From NCBI GenBank assembly GCA_021845865.1, contig JAJZVC010000022.1, forward strand, positions 1 to 45,926: 45,926 bases of DNA, written 5' to 3'. Below the pieces are notes generated by a model. That model did not search any database. It was not told the origin of the DNA and saw nothing but the letters and a program-made list of their open reading frames with translations. A program made the translations under genes and the position numbers. Source of the DNA: Pseudomonadota bacterium (lineage in GTDB: Bacteria; Pseudomonadota; Gammaproteobacteria; Burkholderiales; UBA9220). Below are positions 2,780 to 42,834 of this stretch, in pieces; the stretch's first letter is position 1, and every line of letters begins with the position of its first letter.

Positions 2780-2871
2780 ATTAAGGTGATGCCTCGCAGC
2801 TTTTCGTGTTAGGTACAATATGCCATTACTTGGCTTGAAGCGATTTCTTACATTATTTGTTGGGAAAAAAT

Positions 2872-4158
2872 ATGCCACTAAACAGAAAAATTTCCGTTGT
2901 CGGTCTTGGTTATGTGGGTTTGCCTGTTGCTGTTGCTTTCGGCAAGACTCAACGGACAGTGGGATTCGATATTAATTCGCTACGCATCGCGGAGCTGAAA
3001 AGAGCTTACGACCGGACGGGAGAGGTGGCAGATGAGGATCTGAAGGCGTCCGATATACTTTACACCGATCGAATTGAGGATTTACGCCAAGCCGATTTCC
3101 ACATAATTGCGGTACCCACCCCGGTAGATGATGCGCATCAGCCGGATCTGACTCCTGTGTTTAAGGCATCTGAAACTGTAGCTAAGGCTCTAAAGAAAGG
3201 GGATGTCGTTGTTTATGAGTCTACAGTATATCCAGGTGTAACGGAGGAGGAGTGTGTTCCGATCCTGGAACGCGTATCTGGCCTAAAGTGCGGTGTTGAT
3301 TTTAAAGTCGGTTACAGCCCTGAGCGAATCAATCCCGGAGATAAGGAGCACACCTTTACCAAAATACTAAAAGTGGTGTCTGGCCAGGATGACGAGAGCT
3401 TAGATATTGTTGCAGAGGTATATGGTTCAGTGGTGACGGCTGGAGTACATCGTGCCTCCAGTATCAAGGTGGCAGAAGCCGCAAAGGTTATTGAAAATAC
3501 TCAGCGGGATCTAAATATCGCGCTAATGAATGAATTAGCGGTCCTATTTGATTATATGGACATTGATACAAATGCGGTATTGGAGGCAGCAGGAACAAAA
3601 TGGAATTTTTTGAAATTTAAACCAGGTTTGGTTGGAGGGCATTGCATCGGGGTTGACCCATATTATCTGACATACAAAGCAGAAAAGCTTGGGTATATTC
3701 CCCAGGTGATCTTGGCTGGTCGACGCATCAACGATGGTATGGGCAAGTTTGTTGCTCAGCGTACTATCAAGGAAATGGTACATGCTGGTCACAACATTCT
3801 GGGGGCCTATGTAACGATACTGGGGCTGACGTTCAAAGAGAATTGCCCAGATTTACGGAACTCTCGGGTGGTAGATGTTATCCGTGAGTTGGCGGAGTAT
3901 GGTGTCAACATCCAAGTTCATGACCCCCTGGTCGATGCCGAAGAAGCGCGGCACGAATACGGTATTGATTTGTGTTCTTTTGATCAGCTGAAGCCTGCGG
4001 CGGCAGTGGTGCTGGCTGTTTCCCATAATGAATTCAGGGCGTTAACTCCTGCATCTATGAAGACAATGTGTCACGGTACGCCAGTACTGATGGATGTTAA
4101 GTCGCTATATTCAAAGGAGGAGTTTGAGGCCGCTGGTTTCCGTGTGTGGAGGCTGTAA
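2872..4158 (+). CDS. tviB: UDP-HexNAc 6-dehydrogenase (TviB/WbpO family)
   Basis: A 428-residue member of the UDP-glucose/GDP-mannose dehydrogenase family, oxidising C6 of a UDP-HexNAc to a uronic acid with NAD. The N-terminal Rossmann motif is [12 protein letters not shown]. The central region carries the catalytic Cys in [12 protein letters not shown] (about residue 260). The C-terminal domain has [14 protein letters not shown]. The overall sequence resembles TviB/WbpO, which make UDP-GalNAcA or UDP-GlcNAcA. The ATG at 2872 has GGGA ten bases upstream; an in-frame TTG at 2857 is less likely. Its stop overlaps the next start by one base, so the two are probably translated together. The 92-base gap before it contains no clear promoter. 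Confidence 0.9.
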
Positions 4159-5201
4159 TGGTGGGGAAATACGCGACGCTGCGGGAAGAGCTTTCGGCGC
4201 GTCCCCGAACTTGGCTGATCACAGGCGTCGCTGGCTTCATTGGATCCAACTTATTAGAAACCTTGTTAAACATTGGGCAAACGGTTACAGGGTTGGACAA
4301 CTTAGCAACGGGCAAGCTTGCCAATCTGGAGGAGGTTCGTAGGGAGGTAGGAGAATCGCGCTGGAAGGCGTTTACCTTTATCCAGGGGGATATCCGCAAT
4401 TTTGACGACTGCCGCATTGCCTGCGCTGATGCAGATTACGTATTACACCAGGCGGCCCTAGGATCAGTGCCTCGTTCCCTTGAAGATCCGATTGCAACCA
4501 ATGAGGCTAACGTCACTGGTTTCCTCAATATGCTTACAGCGGCCAGAGAGGCCAAGGTGCGGCGCTTTGTTTATGCTGCCTCAAGTTCTACCTATGGTGA
4601 CCATCCGGCGTTACCGAAGGTGGAGGATCAGATTGGAAAGCCACTATCGCCTTATGCTGTGACGAAATATGTAAATGAGTTGTACGCTGAAGTATTCGCA
4701 CGATGTTATGGCTTTGAGGCCATCGGCCTACGCTATTTTAATATTTTTGGTCGTCGCCAGGATCCGGACGGGGCCTATGCGGCAGTGGTTCCCAAGTGGT
4801 TCGCCGCCCTTTTGGGTGGCGAAACTGTTTATATTAATGGTGACGGAGAAACTAGTAGAGATTTCTGCTACATCGAGAACGCTGTCCAGGCGAATTTGTT
4901 GGCGGCTTGTGCCACTGAGCGTGGGGCGGTCAACCAAGTATACAACGTCGCAGTGGGTGATCGTACTACCCTTAACCAATTGTATACGATGGTTAGGGAG
5001 CGGGTGGTAAAGGTGAGGCCAGAGGCGGGAGATAACGAGCCGATCTACCGGCACTTTCGCGCTGGCGACGTGCGCCACTCCCTGGCAGACATTGGCAAGG
5101 CTCGCCGCTTGCTAGGCTACGAGCCAGCCTATACTGTGCAAGATGGGCTTAAGGAAGCGGCCGAGTGGTATATTCAACGGTTCTGTCCCGAACAGGCTTA
5201 A
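4158..5201 (+). CDS. wbpP: UDP-N-acetylglucosamine C4-epimerase (WbpP/TviC type)
   Basis: This 347-residue extended SDR looks very close to WbpP of Pseudomonas O6 and TviC of Vi antigen clusters. It has [19 protein letters not shown] at the NAD site, [11 protein letters not shown] near residue 100, [11 protein letters not shown], the active-site Tyr-x3-Lys in [14 protein letters not shown], then [12 protein letters not shown] and [13 protein letters not shown]. It interconverts UDP-GlcNAc and UDP-GalNAc. With the preceding dehydrogenase it forms the known pair that leads to UDP-GalNAcA. The ATG overlaps the upstream TAA (TAATG), and GGAGG at 4148-4152 sits five bases before it. Its TAA and the stop of the opposing gene share the TTAA at 5198-5201, leaving no room for a terminator between them. 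Confidence 0.92.
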
Positions 5202-6256
5202 TCGCTTACCAAACTGGCTTTTTGCCGCAATTCTGCAAACCCTTCCAATGCATCGTCGACACTGATATCGCTGACCTCATGGCTTGGAGGCTGGAGTAAA
5301 ACATAGGGTACTCCCCAGGGGTGCCAGTGGCTACTTTCTGATTTTCCAAAAAAACATAAGATGGGTTTGCCCAGGCCGGCCGCTAAGTGCATGGCACCGC
5401 CATCACTGCAAATTATGGCGTCACACAGGGAAAGTCCGGCAATCAATTCTTGTAGTCGATGGGTGGGGTAGGCAGTGACCGGTAGTTTGTCTAATGCCTC
5501 CATAATTTCACTGGCTTTGTGATCATCACCGGGGTGTAAAGGGTTCCATTCGTTTCCGGGTGACCAGAAAAGCACAAAAGCCACCCCCATAAATTGCGCT
5601 GACAATGTATTGATCAGCTTGATAAAATTCTTTGCTGGCCAACGTTGGCTGGGCTTGCGCGAACTGATATGGATACCGATAAGTAGCTGTTTTCCAGAAC
5701 GGCCGAGTAGAGGGCGTATTTTTTCTACCATGGCCGGGTCAGGAAAAACCCTGAGAGTGGGCGGTGGTGGAGCAATGCCTAAGGGAGATAGGAGATCAAA
5801 GACATCTTCTACTTCATGGGACTCGCTTCGAGGGGTATAAGGAACAGGGTAATCTATGCCGGGAATATTACGTTTTCCTGCATTTATATAGCCAATGACT
5901 TTTTTAGGCTGAATTATTCGTACCATTTTCAGTACGCGAGGAGCGGTTTGGGGGGGGGCCACCAAGATGATGTAGTCGAAATGTTTTTTGCGTAACTTGA
6001 TTAAGAGTAGAGCTCGCTCCCAATAGACGCTGGCTACACTTTTTCCTTTTGGTCGGTGCTTGGCCTTTGTGTACGCATAGATGGAATCAATATCGGGATT
6101 GTTTTCTAGCGCAGCTAAATTATAGCTATTAACCAATGCGCAAATTTCGGCAAAGGGAAAGTGGGCCCGTAGTGCGCTGAACAGTGGGGTAGTGCAGACT
6201 AAATCACCAATATTATCCCGCCGAATAACTAGAAATTTCAGTCTGCTATCGTTCAT
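5198..6256 (-). CDS. GT9-family glycosyltransferase (heptosyltransferase-like)
   Basis: A 352-residue protein of the ADP-heptose:LPS heptosyltransferase fold (GT-B). The N terminus reads [19 protein letters not shown], the acceptor-domain start of GT9 enzymes. The C-terminal donor-binding motif [22 protein letters not shown] lies near residue 300, and [18 protein letters not shown] marks the start of the second domain. It would transfer a sugar, perhaps a heptose, on the cytoplasmic side. The start at 6256 overlaps the end of the upstream ligase gene by 11 bases. In-frame extension up to 6310 is open but lies wholly within that gene. The DNA is AT-rich like its neighbours and unlike the LPS-core operon further right. 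Donor sugar unknown. Confidence 0.82.
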
Positions 6257-7526
6257 TTTTTTCAGTTGCTTTTTTTCGGTTGGTCTCCAAAACGCCAAGC
6301 ACCATGCCAACTAGTGTCCAATAGAGGAAGGCATTATGGCTGACAAAAAAGTCGTCGGTCATATTCTTCATGAAGACACCGACAGACATCGTGCTGGCTG
6401 CTAAGGCATATACCCACAGTGAGCCACTAGCATGTAGTGTCCGGCGGGGCCAGAGGAAAAAAAGCGACGAACAATAAAGCATAAGGAAGGCCAGCATTCC
6501 AGGAATGCCCATTTGAATACCTTTGTTGAGAATCATGTTGTGGGCATGCTCCAACCGAAATTCTTTGGGAAAATCGGAGTTGGCGACAGTCATTACCGTA
6601 CGTCCAAACCCCATTCCATGAAATGGATGCAAAAGGATGTCATTGATAGACCAGGACCATATATCCCAGCGAATATCAGAAGAAGTCGAGCGAATACTCA
6701 AAACGGAGTTAAGTAAATAGCTAATTAAAATAATAGAAACAGCAGCAATAAAAATAGTTTTGAATATACGGTAACCCCGCTGCTGCATTGCGATAAAGGT
6801 ACTGGCAAAAATGATTTCAACTATTGCGGTTATCAATCCCATGCGGTTACCGGTTAATAGTAGAGCCAACAAATTTAGAGCGAGAAGGAAAATAAGACTG
6901 GAGCCGCTCCAGTGCCGCGCATGCAATCGTTGGAAAGTATATGCAACAATAAAAGGAAGGGTCGTGATTAAATAAGTACTAAGATTGCCCACGCCATTGT
7001 AGAGAGATTTTCCGTCCCCAGTATTGAGAAGGAGACCATCAATAACGCGCCAGAATGGAGCCTGCCAAAAAGGGTCGATGGCCGTAATTTTATGAAGTAT
7101 TGCGGTGATAGTAAGAATATTGCTGACAATAACCACTAAAATAAGCTTTTCGAGACTCTCGATATTTCGTACCCAAGAAGCGGTGAGCATTAAGGTAAGG
7201 ATGCCATATCCTATTTCCTTCTTGATTTCGCCCAATGACCAGAAGGGAGAGACGGCGTGGAACAGGGAAAAAAACGCTATGGCTCCGTATAGTAGCCATG
7301 GTGTCATCAGTGGAAAATGTAGGCGCAGTCGGTGCCGCCAAGCGCACCAGAAAGTAATGCCACAGAGCAAAAAGAAAGCTAGATTTCGAACGGCAATGGT
7401 GTGGCTGATGGGGAGAACCAAGAGGTAAGCTGCCAGCAACAAGAAGGCTAAACAGGAAACAAACTTTCCACTGCCGGCAGGAAAAGTCGAAAAACAAATG
7501 GGATGGCGAGAAGGTAAGTCGGCCAT
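6246..7526 (-). CDS. O-antigen ligase/polymerase family membrane protein (Wzy_C domain)
   Basis: A 426-residue polytopic membrane protein with roughly ten or more hydrophobic segments. A long periplasmic loop of the Wzy_C/WaaL kind ends in EHAHNMILNKGIQMGIPGM near residue 330, with an RSTSSDIRWDIW segment before it and GMGFGRTV in between. This His-containing loop is typical of O-antigen ligases, which join undecaprenyl-linked glycan to lipid A-core, but related polymerases share it. Sequence alone does not separate ligase from polymerase or protein glycan ligase. No convincing ribosome-binding site precedes the ATG at 7526. It is first in a two-gene minus-strand unit with the GT9 gene, divergent from the CMP-ulosonate cassette. 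Confidence 0.8.
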   Translation of the reverse strand: MADLPSRHPICFSTFPAGSGKFVSCLAFLLLAAYLLVLPISHTIAVRNLAFFLLCGITFWCAWRHRLRLHFPLMTPWLLYGAIAFFSLFHAVSPFWSLGEIKKEIGYGILTLMLTASWVRNIESLEKLILVVIVSNILTITAILHKITAIDPFWQAPFWRVIDGLLLNTGDGKSLYNGVGNLSTYLITTLPFIVAYTFQRLHARHWSGSSLIFLLALNLLALLLTGNRMGLITAIVEIIFASTFIAMQQRGYRIFKTIFIAAVSIILISYLLNSVLSIRSTSSDIRWDIWSWSINDILLHPFHGMGFGRTVMTVANSDFPKEFRLEHAHNMILNKGIQMGIPGMLAFLMLYCSSLFFLWPRRTLHASGSLWVYALAASTMSVGVFMKNMTDDFFVSHNAFLYWTLVGMVLGVLETNRKKATEKNER

Positions 7527-7688
7527 AGGGTATGTATATTTGGGATGAGCTTAAATTATAAGGCTTAGGACAGGAGAACTAATTTGTATTCCTAATTGGC
7601 CAAACTTTTTTGAGTTATATGGAGCACTGCTGTAACATAGCCCCCCTTAGTTGCCTTTAAAATTAAGATACGCAATAACTTTCTTAGT
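7527..7688. promoter_or_regulatory. Divergent intergenic region between ligase gene and ulosonate cassette
   Basis: 162 AT-rich bases with genes leaving in both directions. For the plus strand, TTGAGT (7610-7615) and TAACAT (7633-7638) are 17 bases apart and could be a sigma-70 promoter for the cassette, with four of six matches each. For the minus strand, TATAAT is present as its complement at 7555-7560, without a good -35 hexamer. I see no clear hairpin or operator. Confidence 0.4.
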
Positions 7689-8882
7689 ATGCATCTTTCT
7701 TCTGCAACGGTCGCAATTATACTGGCTCGAGGCGGGTCAAAGGGCATCCCTCACAAGAATTTGATCGATTTTGCAGGTAAGCCGTTGTTGGCTTGGTCCA
7801 TTCTCCAGGCGCGTGCGGCGGAGGCAGTGGATGCAGTTTACGTTTCCTCGGATAGCGCGACTATCCTAGATGTTGCGGCAAAATATGGTGCCCGTCCTAT
7901 CCAACGTCCTGACGAGTTTGCTACCGATACGGCCACTTCGGAATCCGCTTTGCTGCATGCTCTGGATGTGGTTGCTGGCGAGCGGGGGAGGGAGCCGGAG
8001 TGTGTTGTCTTCCTGCAGGCTACTTCGCCTCTGCGGGAGCCGTCGGACATCGATGGCGCTATTGACGAGTTCCGGGCCCAGGGGGCGGATTCTCTCTTTT
8101 CCGACGCGGTCCTCGACGATTTTTGCGCCTGGGAGGAGGAGGGCGGCGTCCTGAGGGGTAAGACTTTTGACCCTTTTAACCGGGGCCGGCGCCAGGATCG
8201 CAAGCCTTTATATTTGGAAAACGGCTCGATCTATGTATTCAAACCTTCGCTCCTGAGGGAGAAGGGCAACCGGTTGGGGGGTAAGATTGCTCGCTACTCC
8301 ATGCCCTACTGGAAATCCTATGAGATTGACAGCGTCGAGAACATCGAGCTGTGCGAGTACTACTTCCGCAAGCACCTGCTGTCCGCGTGGCGTGGGTGGG
8401 GGGATGGGATAGCGGCATTCCAGCCGGATCTAATTGTCTACGATTTCGATGGGGTGATGACTGATAACCGGGTGCTGGTGCTTCAGGATGGCAGCGAGGC
8501 TGTGCTGGCGAACCGTGCCGACGGCTGGGGGATCGGTCAGTTGAAGAAGGCCGGTTTTAGCCAAATCATACTTAGCACCGAAACCAATCCCGTGGTTTCC
8601 GCCCGAGCAAAAAAGCTTGGCCTCGAGGTGCTGCAAGGTAGCGGCGACAAGCGGCGCGATCTTGCTGCTTATTGCGAGACAAGAAATATCCCTCTGGATC
8701 GGGTGTTGTACGTCGGCAACGACGTTAACGATCTGGAAGCCATGCATACGGTCGGTTTTCCGGTGGCGCCGGCCGATGCTCATGCCGAGGTGTTGGCCGT
8801 GGCAAAATACGTCACCAGGGCACGGGGCGGAGAGGGTGTGGCCAAGGAGCTTTCCGAGGCCCTTCTGGCGCCCGCAGCCTAA
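7689..8882 (+). CDS. neuA: CMP-ulosonate cytidylyltransferase fused to a KdsC-like HAD phosphatase
   Basis: A 397-residue two-domain protein. Residues 1 to about 230 are an acylneuraminate cytidylyltransferase: ILARGGSKGIPHKNL at the CTP site, then QATSPLREPSDID. This half makes a CMP-activated keto-acid sugar. Residues from about 246 form a HAD phosphatase of the KdsC/KDN-9-phosphate type: DFDGVMTDN with the two catalytic Asp, LSTETN, GSGDKRRD with the motif III Lys, and GNDVNDLEAM. All four HAD motifs look intact, so the protein probably removes the phosphate from an ulosonate-phosphate and then loads it with CMP. The same domain order is known from vertebrate CMAS. The phosphatase implies a phosphorylated intermediate, as in Kdo and KDN synthesis. 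First gene of a ten-gene run. Confidence 0.88.
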   Translation: MHLSSATVAIILARGGSKGIPHKNLIDFAGKPLLAWSILQARAAEAVDAVYVSSDSATILDVAAKYGARPIQRPDEFATDTATSESALLHALDVVAGERGREPECVVFLQATSPLREPSDIDGAIDEFRAQGADSLFSDAVLDDFCAWEEEGGVLRGKTFDPFNRGRRQDRKPLYLENGSIYVFKPSLLREKGNRLGGKIARYSMPYWKSYEIDSVENIELCEYYFRKHLLSAWRGWGDGIAAFQPDLIVYDFDGVMTDNRVLVLQDGSEAVLANRADGWGIGQLKKAGFSQIILSTETNPVVSARAKKLGLEVLQGSGDKRRDLAAYCETRNIPLDRVLYVGNDVNDLEAMHTVGFPVAPADAHAEVLAVAKYVTRARGGEGVAKELSEALLAPAA

Positions 8883-8908
8883 TCTACTACGTACTGCAGA
8901 GGAAGTTC

Positions 8909-9763
8909 ATGGCCATTTTTGTAATCGCCGAAATCGGCATCAACCACAACGGCAGCCTCGACATCGCCAAGCAGCTCATCGATGTGGCGAAGGAGGCAGG
9001 AGCGGATGCGGTCAAGTTTCAGAAGCGCACTATTGACCTAGTCTACACCAAGGAATTTCTTGATTCCCCCCGGGAAAGCCCCTGGGGCAAGACCCAGCGC
9101 GCCCAGAAGGAGGGGCTAGAGTTCAATGCTGAGCAATTCCGGGAAATCGACCGCTACTGTTGCGAAAAGGGCATCGAATGGTTCGCTTCCGCGTGGGATA
9201 TGGAAAGCCAGAAATTCCTGCGCCAGTTCGACCTGAAGTACAACAAAATCGCCTCCGCCATGCTGGTGCACGAGCCTCTGCTACGCTTAGTGGCTGAAGA
9301 AAAGAAGCACACCTTTATTTCCACCGGTATGAGCGATATTAGGCAAGTCGAGCGCGCCATCGATATTTTTCGGGAGGCCGGCTGTCCTTTCGAGCTGATG
9401 CACACCATTTCTACCTATCCGATGGACGACGAAGATGCCAACCTCAATCGCATCAAGGCGCTGCGCGAGCATTTCGGCTGCGATGTGGGTTATAGCGGCC
9501 ACGAGGTAGGGCTGGCCGTGTCCTATGCGGCGGCAGCTTTGGGCATCACCTCCCTCGAACGCCACATTACCCTGGATCGCGCCATGTATGGTTCCGATCA
9601 GGCCGCTTCGGTGGAGCCTTCGGGATTCCGCATGATGGTAGGTGCGGTGCGCAAGATCGAGAAGGCCATGGGCGATGGTTGCCTGGAGATGAATCCGAAG
9701 GAGGCGCCCATTGCGGAGAAGCTGCGGGCGCATATTCCTTTCGAAAGCGAATACACGAACTGA
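8909..9763 (+). CDS. neuB: NeuB-family ulosonate synthase, short form without SAF domain
   Basis: A 284-residue TIM-barrel synthase that condenses an aldose (or aldose phosphate) with phosphoenolpyruvate to give an alpha-keto acid sugar. Landmarks are IAEIGINHNGSLDIAKQLID, AVKFQKR, FISTGMSD, MHTISTYPMD, GYSGHEVGLA and ERHITLDRAMYGSDQAASVEP. The His residues in GYSGHE and ERHITLD match the two metal ligands of NeuB. Typical NeuB, LegI and PseI proteins are about 340-350 residues, with a C-terminal antifreeze-like SAF domain that reaches into the partner's active site. This one stops just after the barrel, with no sign of a frameshift. The usual PDH near the end reads SDQ. These differences suggest an unusual substrate. 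Confidence 0.85.
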   Translation: MAIFVIAEIGINHNGSLDIAKQLIDVAKEAGADAVKFQKRTIDLVYTKEFLDSPRESPWGKTQRAQKEGLEFNAEQFREIDRYCCEKGIEWFASAWDMESQKFLRQFDLKYNKIASAMLVHEPLLRLVAEEKKHTFISTGMSDIRQVERAIDIFREAGCPFELMHTISTYPMDDEDANLNRIKALREHFGCDVGYSGHEVGLAVSYAAAALGITSLERHITLDRAMYGSDQAASVEPSGFRMMVGAVRKIEKAMGDGCLEMNPKEAPIAEKLRAHIPFESEYTN

Positions 9764-9774
9764 GGGGGGCGGCG

Positions 9775-10758
9775 ATGGTTAGCGGTCGCGTAGTATGGAT
9801 GAACGGTAAGCTGGTGCCGGAGGCGGAAGCGAAAATTTCCGTCTATGACTCAGCCCTCATGTTCGGCGATATGGTGTTCGAGATGACCCGCTCCTTCGGC
9901 AAGAAGCAGTTCAAGCTGCGGGAACACTTGGAGCGGTTGTACGCTGGCCTCAAGATCCTGCAGATTCCGGTGGGCATGACCATTGATAAAATGGAGCACC
10001 ATTGCTTCGAAGCCATCGAGGCTAACGAGCACCTGTTCGGGGACGACGACGAGCACCGCCTCATGATCGACGTTTCCCGCGGCACTCTCGGTATTTACCA
10101 AGGGGTGGAAGGGCTGCACAAGGGGCCCAACGTCATCATCGCCGACTTCCCCTTGCGTTGGACGGTGGCCGGCATGGGGCACCTGTTTGACACTGGCATC
10201 AACGCTATCATCACCTCCCAGCGCGCCATCCCCGGATCCCTGCTGGACCCGAAGATCAAGAACCGCAGTCGAATCCACTACCTGATGGCCAACATCGAGG
10301 CCTCCAACATTGCCGGCGATGATAACTGGGCACTGCTGCTGGACCCGGACGGCTTTATCGCCGAAGGTACCGGCGACAACTTTTTCATCATCAAGAACAA
10401 CACCATCATCTCCCCGGAGGGGCGCAACATCCTGCGGGGAGTCTCCCGTGCCTACGTAATGGAGGAGTTGGGCCCCCAACTGGGCATGAAGGTGGTGGAG
10501 AAGAACATTGAGCCCTACGACGTCCACACCGCCGACGAGGCCTTCATGACCGGCACGCCGTTCTGTATGCTGCCGGTGACCCGGCTCAACGGCCTGCCCA
10601 TCGGCGACGGCAAGGTGGGTCCGGGGTTCCAGGCTTTGCTCGACCGCTGGTCCGGCAACGTGGGGGTAGATATCGCCCGGCAAATCAAGGCGTGGAACGC
10701 CAGCGAATCCGGGGCTGCTTCGGATGCCCCGACCCCGTACCGCTTCAAGAAGAAGTGA
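9775..10758 (+). CDS. Class IV PLP aminotransferase (branched-chain/D-amino-acid aminotransferase-like)
   Basis: A 328-residue fold-type IV PLP enzyme. It starts MVSGRVVWMNGKLVP, followed by the SVYDSALMFGDMVFE segment usual for the family. It has an IKNRSRIHYL segment with a candidate PLP lysine and the signature EGTGDNFFIIKNNTIISP, then LRGVSRAYVMEE and TGTPFCMLPV. Known members act on branched-chain amino acids, D-amino acids or aminodeoxychorismate. Sugar aminotransferases are normally fold type I, so one inside a sugar cassette is unexpected. It may aminate a keto-sugar intermediate or supply an amino acid for an N-acyl group. The ATG at 9775 follows GAGGGG by seven bases; longer in-frame starts lie inside neuB. 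Confidence 0.85.
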   Translation: MVSGRVVWMNGKLVPEAEAKISVYDSALMFGDMVFEMTRSFGKKQFKLREHLERLYAGLKILQIPVGMTIDKMEHHCFEAIEANEHLFGDDDEHRLMIDVSRGTLGIYQGVEGLHKGPNVIIADFPLRWTVAGMGHLFDTGINAIITSQRAIPGSLLDPKIKNRSRIHYLMANIEASNIAGDDNWALLLDPDGFIAEGTGDNFFIIKNNTIISPEGRNILRGVSRAYVMEELGPQLGMKVVEKNIEPYDVHTADEAFMTGTPFCMLPVTRLNGLPIGDGKVGPGFQALLDRWSGNVGVDIARQIKAWNASESGAASDAPTPYRFKKK

Positions 10759-10771
10759 CCCGGGAGGGACG

Positions 10772-11347
10772 ATGAAAGCGCAAGTTCAAATCGACCTGCA
10801 AAGTGCCCTGGCCGTGCACCAAGCCCTCGCTCAGGATGAGGCGCTGCAGGGCCAGCTGGTTGAACTCGCCGGCTGGTGCCTGGACGCCCTGCGCCAGGGG
10901 GGGAAGATTTTCTTCGCCGGTAACGGCGGCAGCTTTGCTGACGCCCAGCATCTCGCGGCGGAATTCGTCTCCCGCCTCCAGTTCGACCGGGCGCCCCTGC
11001 CTTCCATTGCGCTGGGCACCAACAGCTCCTCCATGAGCGCCATCGGCAACGACTACGGCTACGACCAGGTGTTCGCCCGGGAACTGCGGGCCATGGCGGG
11101 CCCCCATGACGTGTTCGTGCCTATCACCACCAGCGGCAACAGCCCCAACATCCTGGCGGCGGTGGAGGTGGCGCGGGAACTCTCGATCCGCACCATGGGC
11201 TTCACCGGCGAAGGCGGCGGCCATCTGGGGGATTTTTGCCCCTGCCTGCGAGTGCCCTCCCGCCGCACCGAGCGCGTCCAGGAAGGCCACATCCTGCTCG
11301 GCCACATCCTGTGCGGGCTGGTGGAAACCGCCTATTTCAAGGGCTGA
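10772..11347 (+). CDS. SIS-domain phosphosugar isomerase, GmhA-like
   Basis: A 191-residue single-domain SIS protein close to GmhA, which converts sedoheptulose 7-phosphate to D-glycero-D-manno-heptose 7-phosphate. It has AGNGGSFADAQHLAAEFV near residue 50, TTSGNSPNI near 110, and RVQEGHILLGHILCGLVE at the C terminus. The Glu of AAEFV and the first His of EGHILLGH match the GmhA catalytic pair. It is not KdsD-like, since it lacks the CBS domains and the KdsD phosphate-loop sequence. In this cassette it could make the aldose phosphate used by the NeuB-type enzyme, or it could be an ordinary heptose-pathway gene serving LPS core. The ATG at 10772 follows GGGAGG. Confidence 0.85.
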   Translation: MKAQVQIDLQSALAVHQALAQDEALQGQLVELAGWCLDALRQGGKIFFAGNGGSFADAQHLAAEFVSRLQFDRAPLPSIALGTNSSSMSAIGNDYGYDQVFARELRAMAGPHDVFVPITTSGNSPNILAAVEVARELSIRTMGFTGEGGGHLGDFCPCLRVPSRRTERVQEGHILLGHILCGLVETAYFKG

Positions 11348-12216
11348 TGCCGCCCGTGACTGCCTGTTATCTCTGCGGCGGCACCGTCCACCGCGAACGC
11401 CCCGGCAGCGTGCGGGATGCGCCCGACCTCAAGGTGCTCGAGTGCGACGCCTGTGGCTTGGTGTTCCTGTCCTCCTTCGGACACATCCGCGCCGACCATT
11501 ATGAAGATTCCGGCATGCACGGCGACCAGCCCCTGCCGGTGGCCGACTGGCTGCGGGAGGCTGAGGGGGACGACGAGCGCCGTTTCCGCTTCCTCCAGGC
11601 CCGGCTGCCGGGCAAACGGCTGCTGGACTTCGGCTGCGGCGCCGGGGGGTTTTTGCTCAAGGCTCGGGAACTGGCGGTCGAGGTGGCGGGAATCGAGCCG
11701 GAGGCGCGGCTCCAGGCCCACTTCGGACAGGCCGGTGTGCAGGTGCGGGGTGGTTTGGACGACGTTGCGGGGACGGGCCGGCGTTTCGATCTGATCACCG
11801 CGTTCCACGTGGTGGAGCATCTGCACGATCCGCGGAGCATGCTGGCTCGGCTGGCGGAATTGCTGGAGCCGGGGGGAGAGTTGATCGTCGAAGTGCCCAG
11901 TTCCGACGATGCATTGTTGACCCTGTTCGACTGCGACGCTTTCCAGCATTTCACCTACTGGAGCCAACACCTGTTCCTGTTCAATCCCCACACCCTGGCC
12001 GACCTGGTGCGCCAGGCCGGCTTGAGGTTGCGCTGGAGCAAGCAGGTGCAGCGCTACCCCCTGTCCAACCACCTCCATTGGCTGGCCCGGAGCAAGCCCG
12101 GCGGCCATCAGAAATGGGCCTTTCTCGACAGCGCTGCCCTCGACGACGCCTACGCGGCCCAACTGGCATCCCTGGGCCGGTGCGATACGCTTCTGGCGGG
12201 CATCGGCCGCGACTAA
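11347..12216 (+). CDS. SAM-dependent methyltransferase with N-terminal cysteine cluster
   Basis: A 289-residue class I methyltransferase. The first 40 residues contain two Cys pairs (CYLC and CDAC), a likely zinc site resembling that of sugar C-methyltransferases of the TylC3/NovU group. The SAM-binding motif LLDFGCGAGGFLL is near residue 95, followed by an acidic loop (GIEPEA), AFHVVEHLHDP and LEPGGELIVEVPS. The start overlaps the upstream stop (TGATG). Sugar C-methyltransferases of this type usually act on keto-sugars, but they are longer, about 400 residues, and this one lacks their C-terminal part. It may therefore methylate a sugar or an N-acyl group. The exact target cannot be read from sequence. 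Confidence 0.8.
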   Translation: MPPVTACYLCGGTVHRERPGSVRDAPDLKVLECDACGLVFLSSFGHIRADHYEDSGMHGDQPLPVADWLREAEGDDERRFRFLQARLPGKRLLDFGCGAGGFLLKARELAVEVAGIEPEARLQAHFGQAGVQVRGGLDDVAGTGRRFDLITAFHVVEHLHDPRSMLARLAELLEPGGELIVEVPSSDDALLTLFDCDAFQHFTYWSQHLFLFNPHTLADLVRQAGLRLRWSKQVQRYPLSNHLHWLARSKPGGHQKWAFLDSAALDDAYAAQLASLGRCDTLLAGIGRD

Positions 12217-12231
12217 ACTAAGGACTCTGCA

Positions 12232-13062
12232 ATGAATTATCCGGCAAATCCCCTCGGCGTCATGGAAGGCCGCCTGCTACCCAAGTACCAGGGGCGCTAC
12301 CAGGCACACCCGGTGGGCTACTGGCAGGACGAGTTTCCCCGGGCGGCGGAAGCGGGGTTGGACTGCATCGAATTTATCCTCGACTACAACGACGCCGAGG
12401 CCAACCCCCTGCTGCGCCCGGATGGTCCGGACGAGATTCTGGCGGTGTCGGAGGCGAGCGGGGTAAAGGTATACACCGTCTGCGCCGACTACTTCATGGA
12501 AGCGCCGCTGCACCATCCCGACCAGGCGGTCGCCGCCCACAGCCAGGAGATGCTGCGCCGCCTGCTGGCTCATGGCGGGAAACTGGGGCTGACCGACATC
12601 GTCATTCCCTGCGTGGACCAGTCCACGATGGCGGATGCCGCCGCCCAGGACCGCTTTGTGCAGCGCATGCAGCCCCTGGTGGAGGAGGCCGAGAAGGCGG
12701 GTATCAACCTGTCCCTGGAAACCGATCTGGCGCCCCAGCCTTTCGCCGATCTGCTATCCCGCTTCGATTCCCGCCGCGTGACGGTGAATTACGACACCGG
12801 CAACAGCGCGGCCCTCGGTTTCGATCCGGCGGAGGAGCTGGCCTGCTATGGCGGGCGCATCTCCGACATCCACATCAAGGACCGGGTCCTGGGCGGCGGC
12901 TCGGTGGTGCTGGGCACCGGAAACACCCAGTTCGAGCGCTTCTTTATGGCCTTGCGCCCCTTGGACTACCAGGGCCCCTTCATCATGCAGGCTTTTCGCG
13001 ACGACGAAGGGGTGGCGATATTTCGCCAGCAGTTGGATTGGGTGCGTCAGCGCTACCTGTGA
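12232..13062 (+). CDS. Sugar phosphate isomerase/epimerase-like TIM-barrel protein (AP_endonuc_2 fold)
   Basis: A 276-residue xylose-isomerase-like TIM barrel. It has GVMEGRLLPKYQGRYQAHP at the N terminus, DCIEFILDYNDAE, VKVYTVCADYFMEAP, SLETDLAP, NYDTGNSAALG, DIHIKDRV and MQAFRDDEG. Glu, Asp, His and Glu/Asp residues at the strand ends give the usual divalent-metal site of this superfamily, which includes hydroxypyruvate isomerase and ketose 3-epimerases. Similar proteins are known in nonulosonic-acid and flagellar-glycan clusters, mostly unassigned. Here it probably isomerises or epimerises a sugar intermediate. It starts 15 bases after the methyltransferase gene. Confidence 0.75.
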   Translation: MNYPANPLGVMEGRLLPKYQGRYQAHPVGYWQDEFPRAAEAGLDCIEFILDYNDAEANPLLRPDGPDEILAVSEASGVKVYTVCADYFMEAPLHHPDQAVAAHSQEMLRRLLAHGGKLGLTDIVIPCVDQSTMADAAAQDRFVQRMQPLVEEAEKAGINLSLETDLAPQPFADLLSRFDSRRVTVNYDTGNSAALGFDPAEELACYGGRISDIHIKDRVLGGGSVVLGTGNTQFERFFMALRPLDYQGPFIMQAFRDDEGVAIFRQQLDWVRQRYL

Positions 13063-13072
13063 AGGATAAGGG

Positions 13073-13846
13073 ATGGATCTTGGGCTGAAAGACAAGCGGG
13101 TCCTGGTTGCCGGCGCCTCCCGGGGCATCGGCCTGGCCGTTGCCGCGGGTTTCCTGCGGGAGGGGGCCCGGGTGGCTATGCTGGCCCGCTCCGCCGGTCC
13201 CCTGGACGAGGTCCTATGCCGCCTCCAGGAAGAGTATGGCCCGGAGCGGGTGCTGGCGTTTCCCGCCGACTGCTCCGACGCGGCGGCATGGCCGTCAATC
13301 CTGGATCGCATCGGCTCTGCCTGGGGCGGGCTGGACGTGGCCATTGCCAATGTGGGCGACGGCCGCGGCCCCCAGGAGGCCTTGCCGGACGCTGAGCGCT
13401 TCGCTGAGGCCTGGGGCAGCAATTTCAGCGCAGCAGAAGCCACGGCCCGCGCCACCCTGCCCCTGCTGGAGGCAAGCGGCGGCTGTCTGTTGTTCGTCTC
13501 CTCCATCGCCGGGCTGGAATACATCGGCGCTCCCACCGACTATTCGGTGGCCAAGACCGCACTGGTGGCCCTGACCAAGCAGATGGCCCGGCGCCTGGCT
13601 CCCCGGGTGCGGGTCAACTGCCTGGCCCCGGGCAACGTTTATTTTCCCGGCGGCAGCTGGGATGCAAAAATCCAGGCCGACCCCCAGCGGGTGGAGGCGC
13701 TGATCCAAGCCACCGTTCCCATGAAGCGTTTCGGTACGCCGGCAGAGATGGCGGACGCCGTCCTCTTCCTGTGCTCCGAACGCGCCGCCTTCATTACCGG
13801 TTCCTGCCTGGTGGTGGACGGCGGACAGACCGTGGGACTCCATTGA
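13073..13846 (+). CDS. Short-chain dehydrogenase/reductase (FabG-like), first of a pair
   Basis: A 257-residue classical SDR. It has the NAD(P)-binding motif VAGASRGIGLAVA, AIANVGDG in place of NNAG, the catalytic Ser in LFVSSIAG, and the Tyr-x3-Lys in YSVAKTALV. The C terminus reads AAFITGSCLVVDGGQT, as in the FabG group. The active site is complete. It would oxidise or reduce a hydroxyl or keto group of a small substrate. Its position ten bases upstream of a second SDR and inside the ulosonate cassette suggests a sugar or sugar-phosphate substrate rather than fatty acids. Nothing in the sequence fixes that substrate. Confidence 0.82.
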   Translation: MDLGLKDKRVLVAGASRGIGLAVAAGFLREGARVAMLARSAGPLDEVLCRLQEEYGPERVLAFPADCSDAAAWPSILDRIGSAWGGLDVAIANVGDGRGPQEALPDAERFAEAWGSNFSAAEATARATLPLLEASGGCLLFVSSIAGLEYIGAPTDYSVAKTALVALTKQMARRLAPRVRVNCLAPGNVYFPGGSWDAKIQADPQRVEALIQATVPMKRFGTPAEMADAVLFLCSERAAFITGSCLVVDGGQTVGLH

Positions 13847-13856
13847 GAGGATAAGA

Positions 13857-14678
13857 ATGAGCGAATCCCTGTTTTCCCTGAAGGACAAGGTAATTGTCAT
13901 CACTGGCGCAGCCGGCCTACTGGGCCGCCATCATTCCGAAGTGGTGGCACGGGCCGGCGGCGTTCCGGTGCTGCTTGATTTGTACGCGGGGCCGGTGGAG
14001 GAGTTGGCCAAAGACCTGGAGCGCCGCTACGGCGTCGCCGCTTCCGGTTTCGCGGTGGACATTACCCGTGAGGCGGAGATCGAGGCCAACTGCACTGCGG
14101 TCCTGGCCCGCTATGGCCACATCGACGGCTTGGTGAACAACGCTGCTAACAATCCCAAGGTGGAGGGTGACGGCAGCAAGAACTTCTCCCGCCTGGAGAA
14201 CTTCCCCCTGCAGGTGTGGGATGCCGACGTGGCGGTGGGGCTAACCGGCGCCTTCCTCTGCGCCAAGCATTACGGTGCAGTTATCGCCCGTCAGGGGGGA
14301 AGCATCGTCAACATTTCCTCCGATCTGGGACTTATCGCTCCCGACCAGCGGCTCTACCGCAAGTCCGGGCTGCCGGAGGACCAGCAGCCAGTGAAGCCGG
14401 TCACCTACTCGGTGGTGAAATCCGGTCTAATCGGACTCACTCGTTATCTAGCCACTTACTGGGCGGACCGTGGTGTGCGCTGCAATGCCCTATGCCCTGG
14501 CGGTGTGGAAAACAACCAAGACCCTGCCTTCCTCAAGGAAGTCTCCAGCCGTATCCCCATGGGCCGTATGGCCCAGCCCGATGAGTACCAGGGAAGTGTG
14601 TTGTTTTTACTGTCTAGTGCTTCCAGTTACGTGAATGGAGCAGTCCTTGCGGCGGACGGTGGGCGGACCACCTGGTAG
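13857..14678 (+). CDS. Short-chain dehydrogenase/reductase, PtmA-like, second of a pair
   Basis: A 273-residue SDR with VITGAAGLLGRHHSEVVARAG at the cofactor site, LVNNAANNPK, SIVNISSDLGLIAPD, the active-site YSVVKSGLIGLTRYLA and an SPGG-like CPGGVENNQDPAFL. The AAGLLG cofactor loop, the IAPD insertion and the ENNQDPAFL segment resemble PtmA of Campylobacter, an oxidoreductase tied to legionaminic acid synthesis on flagellin. This is the strongest gene-level link between the cassette and nonulosonic-acid chemistry outside neuA and neuB. The assignment is from remembered family features; an alignment would be needed to tell it from other SDRs. Confidence 0.78.
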   Translation: MSESLFSLKDKVIVITGAAGLLGRHHSEVVARAGGVPVLLDLYAGPVEELAKDLERRYGVAASGFAVDITREAEIEANCTAVLARYGHIDGLVNNAANNPKVEGDGSKNFSRLENFPLQVWDADVAVGLTGAFLCAKHYGAVIARQGGSIVNISSDLGLIAPDQRLYRKSGLPEDQQPVKPVTYSVVKSGLIGLTRYLATYWADRGVRCNALCPGGVENNQDPAFLKEVSSRIPMGRMAQPDEYQGSVLFLLSSASSYVNGAVLAADGGRTTW

Positions 14679-14726: not shown

Positions 14727-15590
14727 ATGAACATCAAATTGAATCTTGGTGCAAGCCCAATCTGGGAAAAGGAAGGGTGGCATATTCTGGATCACAAAAT
14801 CACGGCGTCTGAAGGATACCGAATAGCCGGGGATGCTGTCGCGATGGATCTACCGGATGAATCTTGCGATGTTGTGTTTTGCTCCCATGTTTTCGAACAT
14901 ATTCCCCATATCCGCCTACCGCTACTTTTATCGGAAATCAATCGCGTTTTGAAAGTGGGAGGAGTGCTTCGTATCTTGACTCCCGACCTAAAGCGCGTGG
15001 CAAAGGCTTATGTGAGTGAAGACATGGATTTCTTCAGGGAAGCCAAGGAAGAAGATCCTAGTTTGAGAACTGATTTGGGTTTCGGAGGGATGCTGATGAA
15101 CTTCATCGTTTCTCCCGGACAGGATACTATCTTGCTAGATCGGAATGCATCCGAGTTTATCGCCGGCTATGCCCATCTTTATTCCTACGATTTCGAGATG
15201 CTGAACATCATGCTGGGGCGGTTGGGTTACAACAATATCCGGCAGTGCGGATTCTGTGATTCTAAAATCGAAGAAATGAAAGAGCCCCTGCATGTTAACA
15301 CCTTGCCGTCGGTATGGGAAAACATGAACCCAGATTTTTACCGTAAACACGGCTTAAAACATGAGTTGGTGAACGGCAAATATGTCATTGATTTCAAGGT
15401 GACCGGTTTTGATCGAGATCCCCTGACGTCACTCATTATCGAATGTGAAAAGGGCCACTTTGTAAATAAGGAGGAGGCGCACAATTTCTTTAACCTCAAA
15501 GGGGATAATTACAACCGCTATGCCTACAGTTTGCTCACCGACGAACGTGTGGTGGATCGACTGAACCAGTGTGGCATCAAGCATCCATAG
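14727..15590 (+). CDS. SAM-dependent methyltransferase (Methyltransf_11 type)
   Basis: A 287-residue protein with a compact N-terminal methyltransferase domain: IKLNLGASP at the SAM site (a variant of the GxGxG loop), VAMDLPDESCDVVFCSHVFEHIPH around residues 42-65, and LSEINRVLKVGGVLRILTPDL. The rest, from about 130, has no motif that I recognise and may shape the acceptor site. Such proteins are frequent in O-antigen and capsule clusters. Base composition falls in AT-richness towards that of the first 7 kb, unlike the GC-rich genes just before it, so this gene and the next may have a separate origin. It is 48 bases from the SDR, the largest gap in the run. Confidence 0.78.
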   Translation: MNIKLNLGASPIWEKEGWHILDHKITASEGYRIAGDAVAMDLPDESCDVVFCSHVFEHIPHIRLPLLLSEINRVLKVGGVLRILTPDLKRVAKAYVSEDMDFFREAKEEDPSLRTDLGFGGMLMNFIVSPGQDTILLDRNASEFIAGYAHLYSYDFEMLNIMLGRLGYNNIRQCGFCDSKIEEMKEPLHVNTLPSVWENMNPDFYRKHGLKHELVNGKYVIDFKVTGFDRDPLTSLIIECEKGHFVNKEEAHNFFNLKGDNYNRYAYSLLTDERVVDRLNQCGIKHP

Positions 15591-15603
15591 GAAGAAGGCA
15601 CCG

Positions 15604-16503
15604 ATGGTGGATATGAAGGCGCTAAAGCGGGCAGTATTGCCCCCTTGGCTGCGCTATTTTGCCAAGTCCTGGCGTGCACATCGGAAACTGAATTCGATTG
15701 TCCGCGAGCATGGCCTGCCACCCCTGGAGGCCAATCCCCTCCTTCCTAGGAAGCATTCCGATACGCTTTTTATCCTGGGAAGCGGGGCGTCCGTGCTTTC
15801 CTATACGCCGGAGCAGTGGGACATTATTTCCCGCCATGATACGCTGGGGTTTGATTATTGGGCACTCCATTCCTTTACACCGACATACTTTGTTCTCGAA
15901 CTGGCAAAAATAGATTGGCACTTGGAGTGCATGGTCCAAAATTTCGCTGCGCGGCCGGAATACTTCAAGAATGCGCAGGTTTTTCTCAAGGACGTGGATA
16001 GGCACGATTTGACAACCATCCGGCAATACATCCACATTCTGCGGCGTTATGTTGGTTCTCTCGAGCTATTGTGGGATGCAGAGATACCGGTCAATACTGT
16101 GAACGAATTTGAAGGGGCGTTGGTTTGGCTGGACCGGCTTGGCTGTTTTTCCAATAACCATTCTTGGGCTGTACCGAGGAATCGGGCCTCTCTGTTTCTC
16201 CTTGTCAACCTTGCAGCTCGAGCAGGCTATAAGGACATCGTGCTGTGTGGGGTGGACCTCAACAATACGGATTATTTCTTCCGTTCTCCAAGCTATCTTC
16301 CCCCTGCCAATGGGATATGTATTCCCCCCGTCTACCAGTCAGGTCGCGTCCATAAGACCAATGATCCGCAATATGGTCAAATGACGATTGCGGCGCTACT
16401 TGACACATTCGACCGCGTAGTCCTCCAGCCGAGGGGCATTACATTGAGCGTGGCCAAATCCTCTTCGGCCCTATACCCACGCTTTCCTGCCTACTTCGGT
16501 TGA
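15604..16503 (+). CDS. Putative CMP-sugar transferase or MAF/GT42-like protein
   Basis: A 299-residue protein with no assignment I can make firmly. After a basic N terminus it has TLFILGSGASVLSYTPEQWD (about residues 55-74), then a DTLGFDYWALH segment. Near residue 210 it has NRASLFLLVNLAARAGYKDIVLCGVDLNN, and later a His in GRVHKTNDP. The order of a GxGxS glycine loop, an alanine-rich helix, GYK-I-L-GVD and a downstream His matches the layout of GT42 sialyltransferases (CstI/CstII) and of MAF/DUF115 glycosyltransferases that use CMP-nonulosonates. It is therefore a candidate for the enzyme that transfers the product of this cassette. The ATG at 15604 follows AAGAAGG; a GTG at 15571 is in frame. 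Its end overlaps the convergent gene by 13 bases. Confidence 0.6.
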   Translation: MVDMKALKRAVLPPWLRYFAKSWRAHRKLNSIVREHGLPPLEANPLLPRKHSDTLFILGSGASVLSYTPEQWDIISRHDTLGFDYWALHSFTPTYFVLELAKIDWHLECMVQNFAARPEYFKNAQVFLKDVDRHDLTTIRQYIHILRRYVGSLELLWDAEIPVNTVNEFEGALVWLDRLGCFSNNHSWAVPRNRASLFLLVNLAARAGYKDIVLCGVDLNNTDYFFRSPSYLPPANGICIPPVYQSGRVHKTNDPQYGQMTIAALLDTFDRVVLQPRGITLSVAKSSSALYPRFPAYFG

Positions 16504-25897: not shown

Positions 25898-26497
25898 ATG
25901 GGCAGCGACAGCGGTTACAGCGAACGGATGCGGCGCAAGAAAGCGGTGGTGGACGCCAAGGTGGCCCGGGCGGACCGGGACAAGGGCCTGCTGCTGGTGC
26001 TGACCGGCAACGGCAAGGGTAAGAGCAGTTCCGGTTTCGGCATGGTGGCCCGGGCCTTGGGGCATGGCATGAAGGTGGGAGTGGTGCAGTTCATCAAGGG
26101 AGCCGCCTCGACGGGAGAGGAGGCGTTTTTCCGCCGCTTCCCCGGCGAGGTGAGCTATTCCGTGACCGGCGAAGGCTTCACCTGGGAGACCCAGGACAGG
26201 GAGCGGGACCGGCGGGTGGCGGAGCAAGGCTGGGAGAAGGCGGCCGCCCTGCTGGCCGACCCGGAAATCGGCCTGGTGCTGCTGGACGAACTGAACATCG
26301 TGCTGAAGTACAGCTATCTGGATTTGGACAAGGTGCTGGCGGACATCCGCCTGCGTCCCCCCATGCAGCATGTGGTGGTGACCGGCCGCGGCGCGCCGGC
26401 GGAACTGGTGGCGGAGGCCGACACCGTCACCGAACTGTCGGTGGTGAAGCACGCTTTCCAGGCCGGCGTCCGGGCCCAGAAAGGGGTCGAGTACTAG
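25898..26497 (+). CDS. cobO: Cob(I)yrinic acid a,c-diamide adenosyltransferase
   Basis: A 199-residue CobA/CobO/BtuR-type enzyme that transfers the 5'-deoxyadenosyl group of ATP to cob(I)alamin or corrinoid precursors. It has a P-loop LVLTGNGKGKSSSGFGMVARALGHG near residue 30, VVQFIKGAASTGEEAFF near 65, LVLLDELNIVLKYSYLD near 128 with the DELN motif, and VVVTGRGAPAELVAEADTVTEL near 155. Residues 1-25 are basic. GGAGG lies 12 bases before the ATG. It stands upstream of the cobalamin riboswitch, so its own transcript would not carry that switch unless a second one exists elsewhere. Confidence 0.94.
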   Translation: MGSDSGYSERMRRKKAVVDAKVARADRDKGLLLVLTGNGKGKSSSGFGMVARALGHGMKVGVVQFIKGAASTGEEAFFRRFPGEVSYSVTGEGFTWETQDRERDRRVAEQGWEKAAALLADPEIGLVLLDELNIVLKYSYLDLDKVLADIRLRPPMQHVVVTGRGAPAELVAEADTVTELSVVKHAFQAGVRAQKGVEY

Positions 26498-26519
26498 TTG
26501 TGGTAGAATTTCCTCCGCG

Positions 26520-26706
26520 TAACAGGTGCCTGCCTGGCCATCCGGTCGGCAGGTTAAACGGGAAACCGGTGAGTTCTCCTTGGAGGACGAATCCGGTGCT
26601 GCCCCCGCAACGGTAAGCGAGTGTGGGCGCGCCAACAAGCCACTGCGGCAACCAGCCGTGGGAAGGCGGCGCGTCAAGTTCTCGCGAGCCCGGATACCGG
26701 CCTGGA
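26520..26706 (+). promoter_or_regulatory. Cobalamin riboswitch controlling btuB and the downstream cob genes
   Basis: The conserved blocks of the B12 riboswitch occur in order: AGGTGCC at 26524-26530, GGTTAAACGGGAA, CCGGTG, GCCCCCGCAACGG, the B12 box GCCACTG at 26639-26645, GGGAAGGCG, and GCGAGCCCGGATACCGGCCTG ending near 26704. In the bound state it is expected to reduce expression of the btuB operon. TAGAAT at 26504-26509 is a possible -10 element just before it, inside the space after cobO. About 120 bases separate it from the btuB ATG, where GC-rich segments could form the expression platform. No T-run terminator is obvious, so translational control is more likely. Confidence 0.95.
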
Positions 26707-26825
26707 ACGGGAGCGGAAATACCGCGGGGTGACGGTAAGCCAGCATGGCCTGAGCGCCATTCCGGGTATTTCCATTGTTGACGAATACGGCATGCGGGGA
26801 TGCGTGCCGCCACATGGAACCCGAA

Positions 26826-28640: not shown

Positions 28641-28649
28641 GGAGCACAT

Positions 28650-29453
28650 ATGAAATTCCGGCTGTTGGGTGTCTTGCTGTTGCTGGTGTCTCCCCTGGCC
28701 TGGGGGGGCTGCCCGCGCATCGTCAGCCAATCCCCCTACATCACCCATACCCTGGAGTGGCTGGGCCTGCAGTCCTGCATCGTCGGCGTCAGCCGCTACG
28801 ACACCTTGCCCCTGCCCCACACCGGCGGAGTGATGGACCCGGACCCGGAAGCCATTGCAGCGCTGAGGCCGGAACTGCTGCTGACCTCCGACTGGACGGC
28901 GGAGGACGTCTTGCGCCAAGCCACGCCCCCGGGGGCGAAGGCGCTGCGCTTGCACGGTTTCCAGACCATGGCCCAGGTGGAGGAAAATCTGCGTCTCATC
29001 GGCGAAGCGGCCGGCCTGCCCGACGCCGCCCGGCGCGCCGAGGCTTTCGCCCATGACTGGCGCGAAAGGGCGGCGGCGGTGGACGGCCACGGCATCCGCG
29101 CCCTGCTCCTTTCCGCCTGCGGCGGCAGCCCCTATTCCTTCGGCCGCGGCTCCTGGCTGGGGGACTTGTTCAGCGCCGCCGGTTTCGAGGTGGTGGGGGG
29201 CGACAAGCAGATCATCCATTTCTCCGCCGACGGCGACCTGGGCGAACTGCGGGCGGCGGTGAAACAATACCGCCCCGGGGTGATTTTCGTCTTCGAGCAC
29301 AAGGCACGGCCCGCCTGCAACGCGGCCCTGGGCCGGATGGGGGTCAAGCTGGCGCTCCTCGACGGCGATCTGTTCCTCCATCCCGCCCCGGTGCTGCTGC
29401 AAGGGTTGGACGAACTGGCGGCCAGGCGCAAGGAATGGGAGGCCAAGCCATGA
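28650..29453 (+). CDS. btuF: Periplasmic corrinoid-binding protein, BtuF-like
   Basis: A 267-residue protein with an 18-20-residue signal peptide (LLLLVSPLAWGG) and the class III substrate-binding fold of BtuF. It has RIVSQSPYITHTLEWLGLQSCIVGVSRYDTLP near the N terminus, VMDPDPEAIAALRPELLLTSDW near residue 70, FQTMAQVEENLRLIGEAAGL near 110, and GRGSWLGDLFSAAGFEVVGG near 165. It should hold B12 in the periplasm for BtuCD, but no BtuC or BtuD gene is in the window. The Cys after AWGG does not fit a clean lipobox. Its stop overlaps the cobU start by four bases. A second, different BtuF-like gene closes the operon at 35678-36754. Confidence 0.85.
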   Translation: MKFRLLGVLLLLVSPLAWGGCPRIVSQSPYITHTLEWLGLQSCIVGVSRYDTLPLPHTGGVMDPDPEAIAALRPELLLTSDWTAEDVLRQATPPGAKALRLHGFQTMAQVEENLRLIGEAAGLPDAARRAEAFAHDWRERAAAVDGHGIRALLLSACGGSPYSFGRGSWLGDLFSAAGFEVVGGDKQIIHFSADGDLGELRAAVKQYRPGVIFVFEHKARPACNAALGRMGVKLALLDGDLFLHPAPVLLQGLDELAARRKEWEAKP

Positions 29454-36754: not shown

Positions 36755-36760
36755 GGATAT

Positions 36761-39202: not shown

Positions 39203-39234
39203 GTTTTCAGATGTCGCCTGTAGAGGCTGTTTAC

Positions 39235-39275
39235 AGGTTAACCTAACTTATAAACAATCGCCGTAGGGTTGTCTA
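39235..39275 (-). promoter_or_regulatory. Sigma-70 promoter with a palindrome at the start site, for the GGDEF-EAL gene
   Basis: On the minus strand, TAGACA (39270-39275) and TATAAG (39247-39252) are exactly 17 bases apart and match five of six consensus bases each. The 10-base palindrome AGGTTAACCT (39235-39244) begins two bases after the -10 and covers the expected start site, which suggests a repressor operator. The leader to the ATG at 39202 is about 38 bases. The sequence is seen; the operator role is inferred. Confidence 0.65.
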
Positions 39276-39324
39276 CTTACGGCGGTCCGGCTATCCGTCT
39301 GGGCCGGCGCCCGCTGGCCGCCAG

Positions 39325-41314: not shown

Positions 41315-42834
<1,520 letters not shown>

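Follow-up and report, generated by a model that had tools for sequence, protein, structure and literature searches.

A conserved fold-type IV aminotransferase family of ulosonic-acid cassettes, with a putative role in amino-ulosonate biosynthesis

Sugar amination is normally carried out by fold-type I enzymes such as PseC and LegC. What, then, is the task of a fold-type IV enzyme encoded within a sugar cassette? The question was raised by the window, the whole stretch of 45,926 nucleotides from a Pseudomonadota genome analysed here. The original prediction had placed such an aminotransferase between a synthase and an isomerase gene and offered two uses for it: amination of an acyclic keto acid, possibly the ulosonate itself, or supply of an amino acid substituent. 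The following genes of the window were annotated.

2857..4158, + strand: TviB-like UDP-sugar 6-dehydrogenase (Pfam/NCBIfam matches); given as context, membership of the AT4 cassette not implied
4146..5201, + strand: TviC-like UDP-sugar 4-epimerase (Pfam/NCBIfam matches); context
7689..8882, + strand: fusion of a CMP-sugar transferase (NeuA/PseF-like) with a KdsC-like HAD phosphatase (PF02348 and HAD matches)
8909..9763, + strand: short NeuB, PEP-dependent ulosonate synthase type, 284 aa, SAF domain not found (PF03102 only)
9775..10758, + strand: AT4, class IV (fold-type IV) PLP aminotransferase, 327 aa (PF01063, family alignments, model and PDB match)
10772..11347, + strand: SIS/GmhA-like ketose-aldose phosphate isomerase (PF13580; ATG at 10772; gmhA models below cut-off)
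11347..12216, + strand: SAM methyltransferase MTx with a Cys-rich N-terminus (PF13489)
12232..13062, + strand: xylose-isomerase-like TIM barrel, TIM (PF01261)
13073..13846, + strand: short-chain dehydrogenase SDR1 (PF13561)
13857..14678, + strand: short-chain dehydrogenase SDR2 (best NCBIfam match PRK09186)
14727..15590, + strand: SAM methyltransferase MT2 (PF08241)

Elsewhere in the window, positions 15571-16503 encode a protein without a Pfam match, relatives of which (37-57% identity) lie downstream of SDR2 in four loci (L035, L036, L043 and L046). Long overlapping frames occur on both strands in positions 26400-43000, for example 26427-29402 (-) and 26775-28640 (+).

The AT4 protein, its motifs and its paralogues

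The AT4 frame starts with ATG and its only Pfam match at E 0.001 or below is PF01063 (Aminotran_4; E 4e-43, residues 34-270), which passed the gathering test with 148.3 bits against 28.5 and was covered over positions 2-222 of 223. An AlphaFold model (pLDDT 88, pTM 0.88) matched the archaeal BCATs 5mqz and 5e25 in the PDB with a Z score of 30.1. The profile, the model and the PDB match confirm that 9775-10758 encodes a fold-type IV aminotransferase, and its predicted location was also right, with the short NeuB gene before it and the SIS/GmhA-like isomerase gene after it. The structure leaves the substrate undecided, because BCATs, DAATs and (R)-amine transaminases fit the model about equally (Z 27-30); in this comparison of overall structures only, the (R)-amine transaminases 3wwi and 3wwh scored about 29, close to the BCATs.

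A collection of genomes from 84,980 species was scanned with AT4 as the sole query, and of 128 loci the best 80, with identities of 55-87%, were kept. Motifs were counted in 81 proteins, namely AT4 of the window and those of the 80 loci. The PLP lysine K162, E197 and R54 were conserved in all 81 in the family alignment, the first two aligning with the Lys and Glu of BCATs. The substrate motifs, in contrast, differ from those of BCAT, DAAT and PabC and are nearly invariant within the family. AT4 has VFEMTR where canonical enzymes have VFEGIR, and DEHR at the YxR carboxylate motif; the register at this position is ExR by profile and phmmer alignments and RxM by MAFFT, and the Tyr is absent from 81/81 proteins in either alignment. 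The lysine is followed by KNRSR instead of the KSLNY of BCATs, with R166 in every member, and GTPFC replaces GTAAE or GTGAE, with P262 in 79 of 81. The C-terminal tail is conserved as well, Q303 and Y322 each being found in 80 of 81 rows with a gap in the remaining one. In BlasaTA (K155/Y159) the Tyr is described as contacting PLP, and R166 of AT4 takes the place of that Tyr (PMC10671532). The intact signature seen initially thus applies to the PLP machinery, whereas the substrate motifs of BCATs and DAATs have been replaced.

AT4 is distinct from the housekeeping class IV enzymes. It scored below every NCBIfam cut-off listed, including those of IlvE (TIGR01122, 174.5 against 245.55), D-amino-acid transaminase (TIGR01121, 95.8 against 277.45) and aminodeoxychorismate lyase, PabC (TIGR03461, 67.2 against 176.85). 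PF01063 occurs at four places in the same genome. One (L001) is IlvE, with 453.7 bits against the TIGR01122 cut-off of 245.55; another (L003) is above the PabC cut-off (269.8 against 176.85), and a third (L002) is DAAT-like yet below its cut-off (236 against 277.45). Clear orthology of AT4 to IlvE in a genome with no other ilvE would have refuted the original prediction, but a separate IlvE over the cut-off is present. An IlvE above the cut-off was also found in 32 of 40 AT4 genomes tested (40 of the 80).

Extent of the family and its linkage to NeuB and CMP-transferase genes

Among the best 80 of 128 loci, 20 named phyla are represented; five loci carry no phylum label and five are archaeal. 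The records are mostly metagenome-assembled, one (L039, Daejeonella sp. H1SJ63) bearing the title of an ordinary genome, and the taxa include Nitrosopumilus, relatives of Pelagibacter, and Prochlorococcus. One family alignment comprised 61 sequences and another 81. A quick tree built from 92 rows united all 81 AT4 rows in one group (SH-aLRT 98); the position of L006 is unsure because this tree was a quick one, its outgroup branches are long and its 11 outgroup rows were chosen. AT4 of the window fell within a group of seven rows to which Bacteroidota also belong (Daejeonella, at 81% identity). The branching is out of step with taxonomy, a point in favour of horizontal transfer. When 369 genomes of the class were searched, nothing outside the genome of the window scored better than E 3.7e-47, at 32% identity. 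Nearly all of the 29 in-class homologues (about 30-37% identity, L006-L034) carried ordinary BCAT motifs, and no NeuB was found within 1.5 kb of them where the contig allowed. Two plasmid relatives were found (34-36%), both from Skermanella; the relative with 35.5% identity lies outside the AT4 family, in a transport/catabolic setting. Three class IV matches to phages, at about 31% identity, came from Salmonella records; two of these carry a branched-chain enzyme annotation and the third has none.

The AT4 loci were selected by AT4 alone and not by their neighbours. The linkage expected of an amino-ulosonate biosynthesis cassette was observed in the window and, for NeuB and for a CMP-transferase of NeuA or SpsF type alike, in 72 of the best 80 of 128 loci; where AT4 is flanked by 4 kb or more on each side (56 loci), each of the two was present in 54. 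The two exceptions for NeuB were L108, with a 71% identical NeuB elsewhere in the genome, and L114, with only a 32% one. No NeuB was found at E 1e-10 or below in the assemblies of L102, L112, L080 and L087, which may be incomplete. AT4 of the window is linked in addition to genes for a HAD phosphatase and an isomerase. The NeuB proteins of the 72 loci were of three forms: 56 short (four of them cut by contig ends), 14 long and two of ordinary length. The short NeuB of the window fell below the cut-offs of the NeuB_NnaB and PseI models. The long proteins have about 615-618 residues, counted from the start of the match to the stop; Pfam, run on one of the 14 (L040), gave NeuB, SAF and a TIM barrel. 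At L040 6608-8500 and in 13 other loci a 630-residue NeuB+SAF+xylose-isomerase-like TIM fusion replaces the short NeuB, often beside a CBS-GHMP kinase.

Gene order was also recurrent among the best 80 of 128 loci. Immediately before AT4, the scored gene was a CMP-transferase in 36/80 and a methyltransferase (MT24 or MT2) in 12/80, and AT4 directly followed NeuB in 16/80 as well as in the window. TIM was the next scored gene downstream in 37/80. SDR1 lay within 4 kb of AT4 in 43 loci and SDR2 in 42; PRK09186, the best match of SDR2, is presumably linked to the flagellin-modification protein PtmA. Homologues of MT2 were within 4 kb in nine loci, directly upstream in six, and those of MTx were directly downstream in L101 and L110.

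Among 398 genomes of the phylum, AT4 (E 1e-70 or below) was found in three, that of the window included, and short NeuB (E 1e-70 or below) in 13. All three AT4 genomes were within these 13 and AT4 was absent from the other 10, so AT4 usually implies NeuB but not the reverse. The co-occurrence of AT4 with short NeuB in other genomes, suggested as a check at the outset, was thus found both among the AT4 loci and within the phylum, and AT4 therefore belongs to the sugar cassette. Mantel tests gave weak support for coupling of AT4 to NeuB: AT4 distances tracked those of NeuB weakly (r 0.27, n 51), with NeuB matches under 45% identity and short matches dropped so that 51 of 81 rows were kept. The values for SpsF, SDR2, SIS and TIM ranged from 0.44 to 0.59 (SpsF 0.59, SDR2 0.48). 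AT4 is a real, conserved and specific aminotransferase family of ulosonic-acid cassettes, previously unlabelled; in open-licence papers, no treatment of a class IV aminotransferase in NeuB cassettes was recognised.

One late branch of the family (SH-aLRT 96) lacks a nearby NeuB. It consists of AT4 at L102 334-1323, L112 2003-2992 and L114 9983-10984; the neighbours are genes of DegT, SDR, Zn-ADH and aldolase in L114 and URO-D-type genes in L112. These three proteins may act on another polyhydroxy substrate. A minimal trio of CMP-transferase, methyltransferase and AT4 was seen at L087 1236-3467, in a MAG labelled Actinomycetota, the assembly of which yielded no NeuB.

A proposed pathway and the competing reactions

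We consider it about an even chance, roughly 50%, that an amino-ulosonic-acid pathway has AT4 as its dedicated aminotransferase, acting on a putative substrate of that pathway. The isomerase would yield an aldose phosphate, which the short NeuB would couple with PEP, and the HAD domain would strip the phosphate. An oxidoreductase (the SDRs in the window; a radical SAM enzyme, PhyH oxygenase or Fe-ADH in other loci) would then expose a carbonyl away from the anomeric carbon, and AT4, with PLP on K162, would move an amino group onto it, the donor probably being an amino acid such as glutamate. The target of amination could be the free ulosonate or its aldose precursor, before CMP activation in either case. 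The neighbouring methyltransferase may modify the aminated product, and the NeuA domain would make the CMP-sugar for a surface polysaccharide built by the locus.

Oxidoreductases of alternating type are found beside AT4: SDR1/SDR2, SDR3, radical SAM-SPASM, PhyH and Fe-ADH. A gene for an SDR, radical SAM, PhyH, Fe-ADH or Gfo/Idh protein lay within 4 kb of AT4 in 71 of the best 80 of 128 loci, a count which is no independent test because these very loci furnished the list of partners and SDRs are widespread. Four of the nine loci without such a partner end within 600 bp downstream of AT4. A PhyH-type oxygenase gene directly follows AT4 in L092, L097, L106, L107 and L108, mostly marine genomes including Prochlorococcus.

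The content of the corresponding slot was compared in cassettes without AT4. Thirteen NeuB-match regions were fetched; two contained AT4 (L138 and L141), and 10 of the other 11 were gene-called, L142 being omitted as a short contig. In L132 and L135 the slot between the CMP-transferase and the TIM/SDR genes holds a 458-aa aminotransferase and a VOC protein. The L132 enzyme belongs to class III (PF00202), closest to 4-aminobutyrate transaminases, and L135 has the same layout. In L131 and L139 the slot is taken by an SDR, and in L143 a Gfo/Idh oxidoreductase adjoins SDR2; L133, L134, L136, L137 and L140 have other layouts or no clear slot. TIM, SDR1 and SDR2 occur in AT4-free cassettes too. Judged from gene content, these slots suggest replacement of one aminating enzyme by another at the same pathway step. 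Both kinds occur in tandem cassettes at L070 7572-13912, as NeuB-NeuA-methyltransferase-AT4 and NeuB fragment-NeuA-class III aminotransferase-VOC. More tentatively, a whole route could be envisaged in which a nitrogen-free ulosonic acid is built, oxidised and, shortly before its CMP activation, aminated in a late step by a fold-type IV enzyme, a class III enzyme being able to fill the slot, and which is shared horizontally across about 20 phyla.

In the first competing explanation, the sugar bears an N-acyl or amide substituent derived from a D- or L-amino acid or a different amino compound, and AT4 provides that compound. The nearest solved relatives of AT4 are amino-acid transaminases, and the constant co-occurrence could equally reflect such a supply. 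However, none of the 81 members retains the substrate motifs of BCAT or DAAT, and a class III aminotransferase occupies the same slot in other cassettes. A ligase or acyltransferase would also be needed, and none was seen among those recurring families beside AT4 that were annotated. This use, one of the two proposed originally, is accordingly less supported and appears unlikely.

The other use, amination of the C2 keto group of the open-chain 3-deoxy-2-ulosonate to a polyhydroxy alpha-amino acid, would agree with the classical role of class IV enzymes as alpha-keto-acid transaminases, with the NeuB product being an alpha-keto acid, and with those loci where AT4 directly follows NeuB. NeuA-type enzymes, however, activate the anomeric C2 hydroxyl. 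Amination at C2 would remove the anomeric centre needed by the adjacent CMP-transferase, so that the product could not be activated, yet this transferase is present in nine tenths of the best 80 of 128 loci and often immediately precedes AT4; nor would several recurring oxidoreductase types be needed. We regard this reaction as improbable. Because C2 amination would block CMP activation, the aminated carbonyl more probably belongs to another carbon of the ulosonate, or to the aldose prior to the NeuB step. Amination of another carbonyl, generated by a flanking oxidoreductase, or of a sugar precursor is a better fit than either original use.

Slightly less probable again is that AT4 is a fold-type IV lyase or racemase instead of a transaminase. 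The Arg at K+4 in KNRSR is shared with the PabC-like lyase of the genome (KHLNR), BCATs having Tyr there, but the other PabC-like motifs are not shared, the PabC score is well under its cut-off, and the enzyme in the same slot elsewhere is a class III aminotransferase. Finally, the chance presence here of a housekeeping transaminase (IlvE or DAAT), whether recruited or duplicated, was rejected as very improbable: AT4 is about 30-37% identical to BCATs and shares their fold, but it misses all family cut-offs, its genome has separate IlvE, DAAT-like and PabC-like genes, and the 81 members form one clade, NeuB-linked across many phyla.

If the amino-ulosonate reading is right, a conserved transaminase family would gain a function, and many uncultured and marine microbes with undescribed surface glycans would be predicted to make aminated sialic-acid-like sugars. 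Surveys counting only enzymes of the PseC/LegC type would then overlook a class of amino-ulosonates, and the family would be a source of fold-type IV transaminases with possible activity on polyhydroxylated keto acids.

Comparison with known systems

Compared with BCATs of the PRK08320/IlvE type (PDB 5mqz, 5cm0 and 5e25), AT4 shares fold-type IV, the PLP lysine and Glu, 33-35% identity and a Z score of about 30, but differs in VFEMTR, the loss of YxR, KNRSR, GTPFC and the conserved C-terminal tail (Q303, Y322). As a pathway, the system is probably one of amino-ulosonate biosynthesis with an enzyme of unusual fold, the reaction itself being predicted from sequence and gene context. With cassettes of KDN type, represented by the KDN 9-phosphatase model NF058599, it has in common NeuB with a HAD phosphatase and a CMP-transferase; the HAD domain scored 85.1 with that model, under the cut-off of 180, and the AT4 cassette adds an aminotransferase, TIM and SDR genes. 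With legionaminic and pseudaminic acid cassettes it shares NeuB, CMP-transferase and the amino-sugar theme. There, fold-type I enzymes (LegC, PseC) aminate nucleotide-sugar precursors, whereas no DegT-type aminotransferase was found by Pfam among the annotated window genes from 2857 to 14678, and only 9 of the best 80 of 128 loci had a scored DegT homologue at a distance of 4 kb or less from AT4. The proposed logic resembles that of the KdnA/KdnB route to 8-amino-Kdo in Shewanella, in which the free ulosonate is likewise oxidised and then aminated. In three of the best 80 of 128 loci, NeuB and AT4 have an Fe-ADH gene as neighbour; one of these Fe-ADHs matches PDB 5k8c, named Kdo 8-oxidase, as one of 32 matches and not the best, so the likeness is not specific to KdnB. 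The aminotransferases of the two routes differ in fold, KdnA being of fold-type I and AT4 of fold-type IV.
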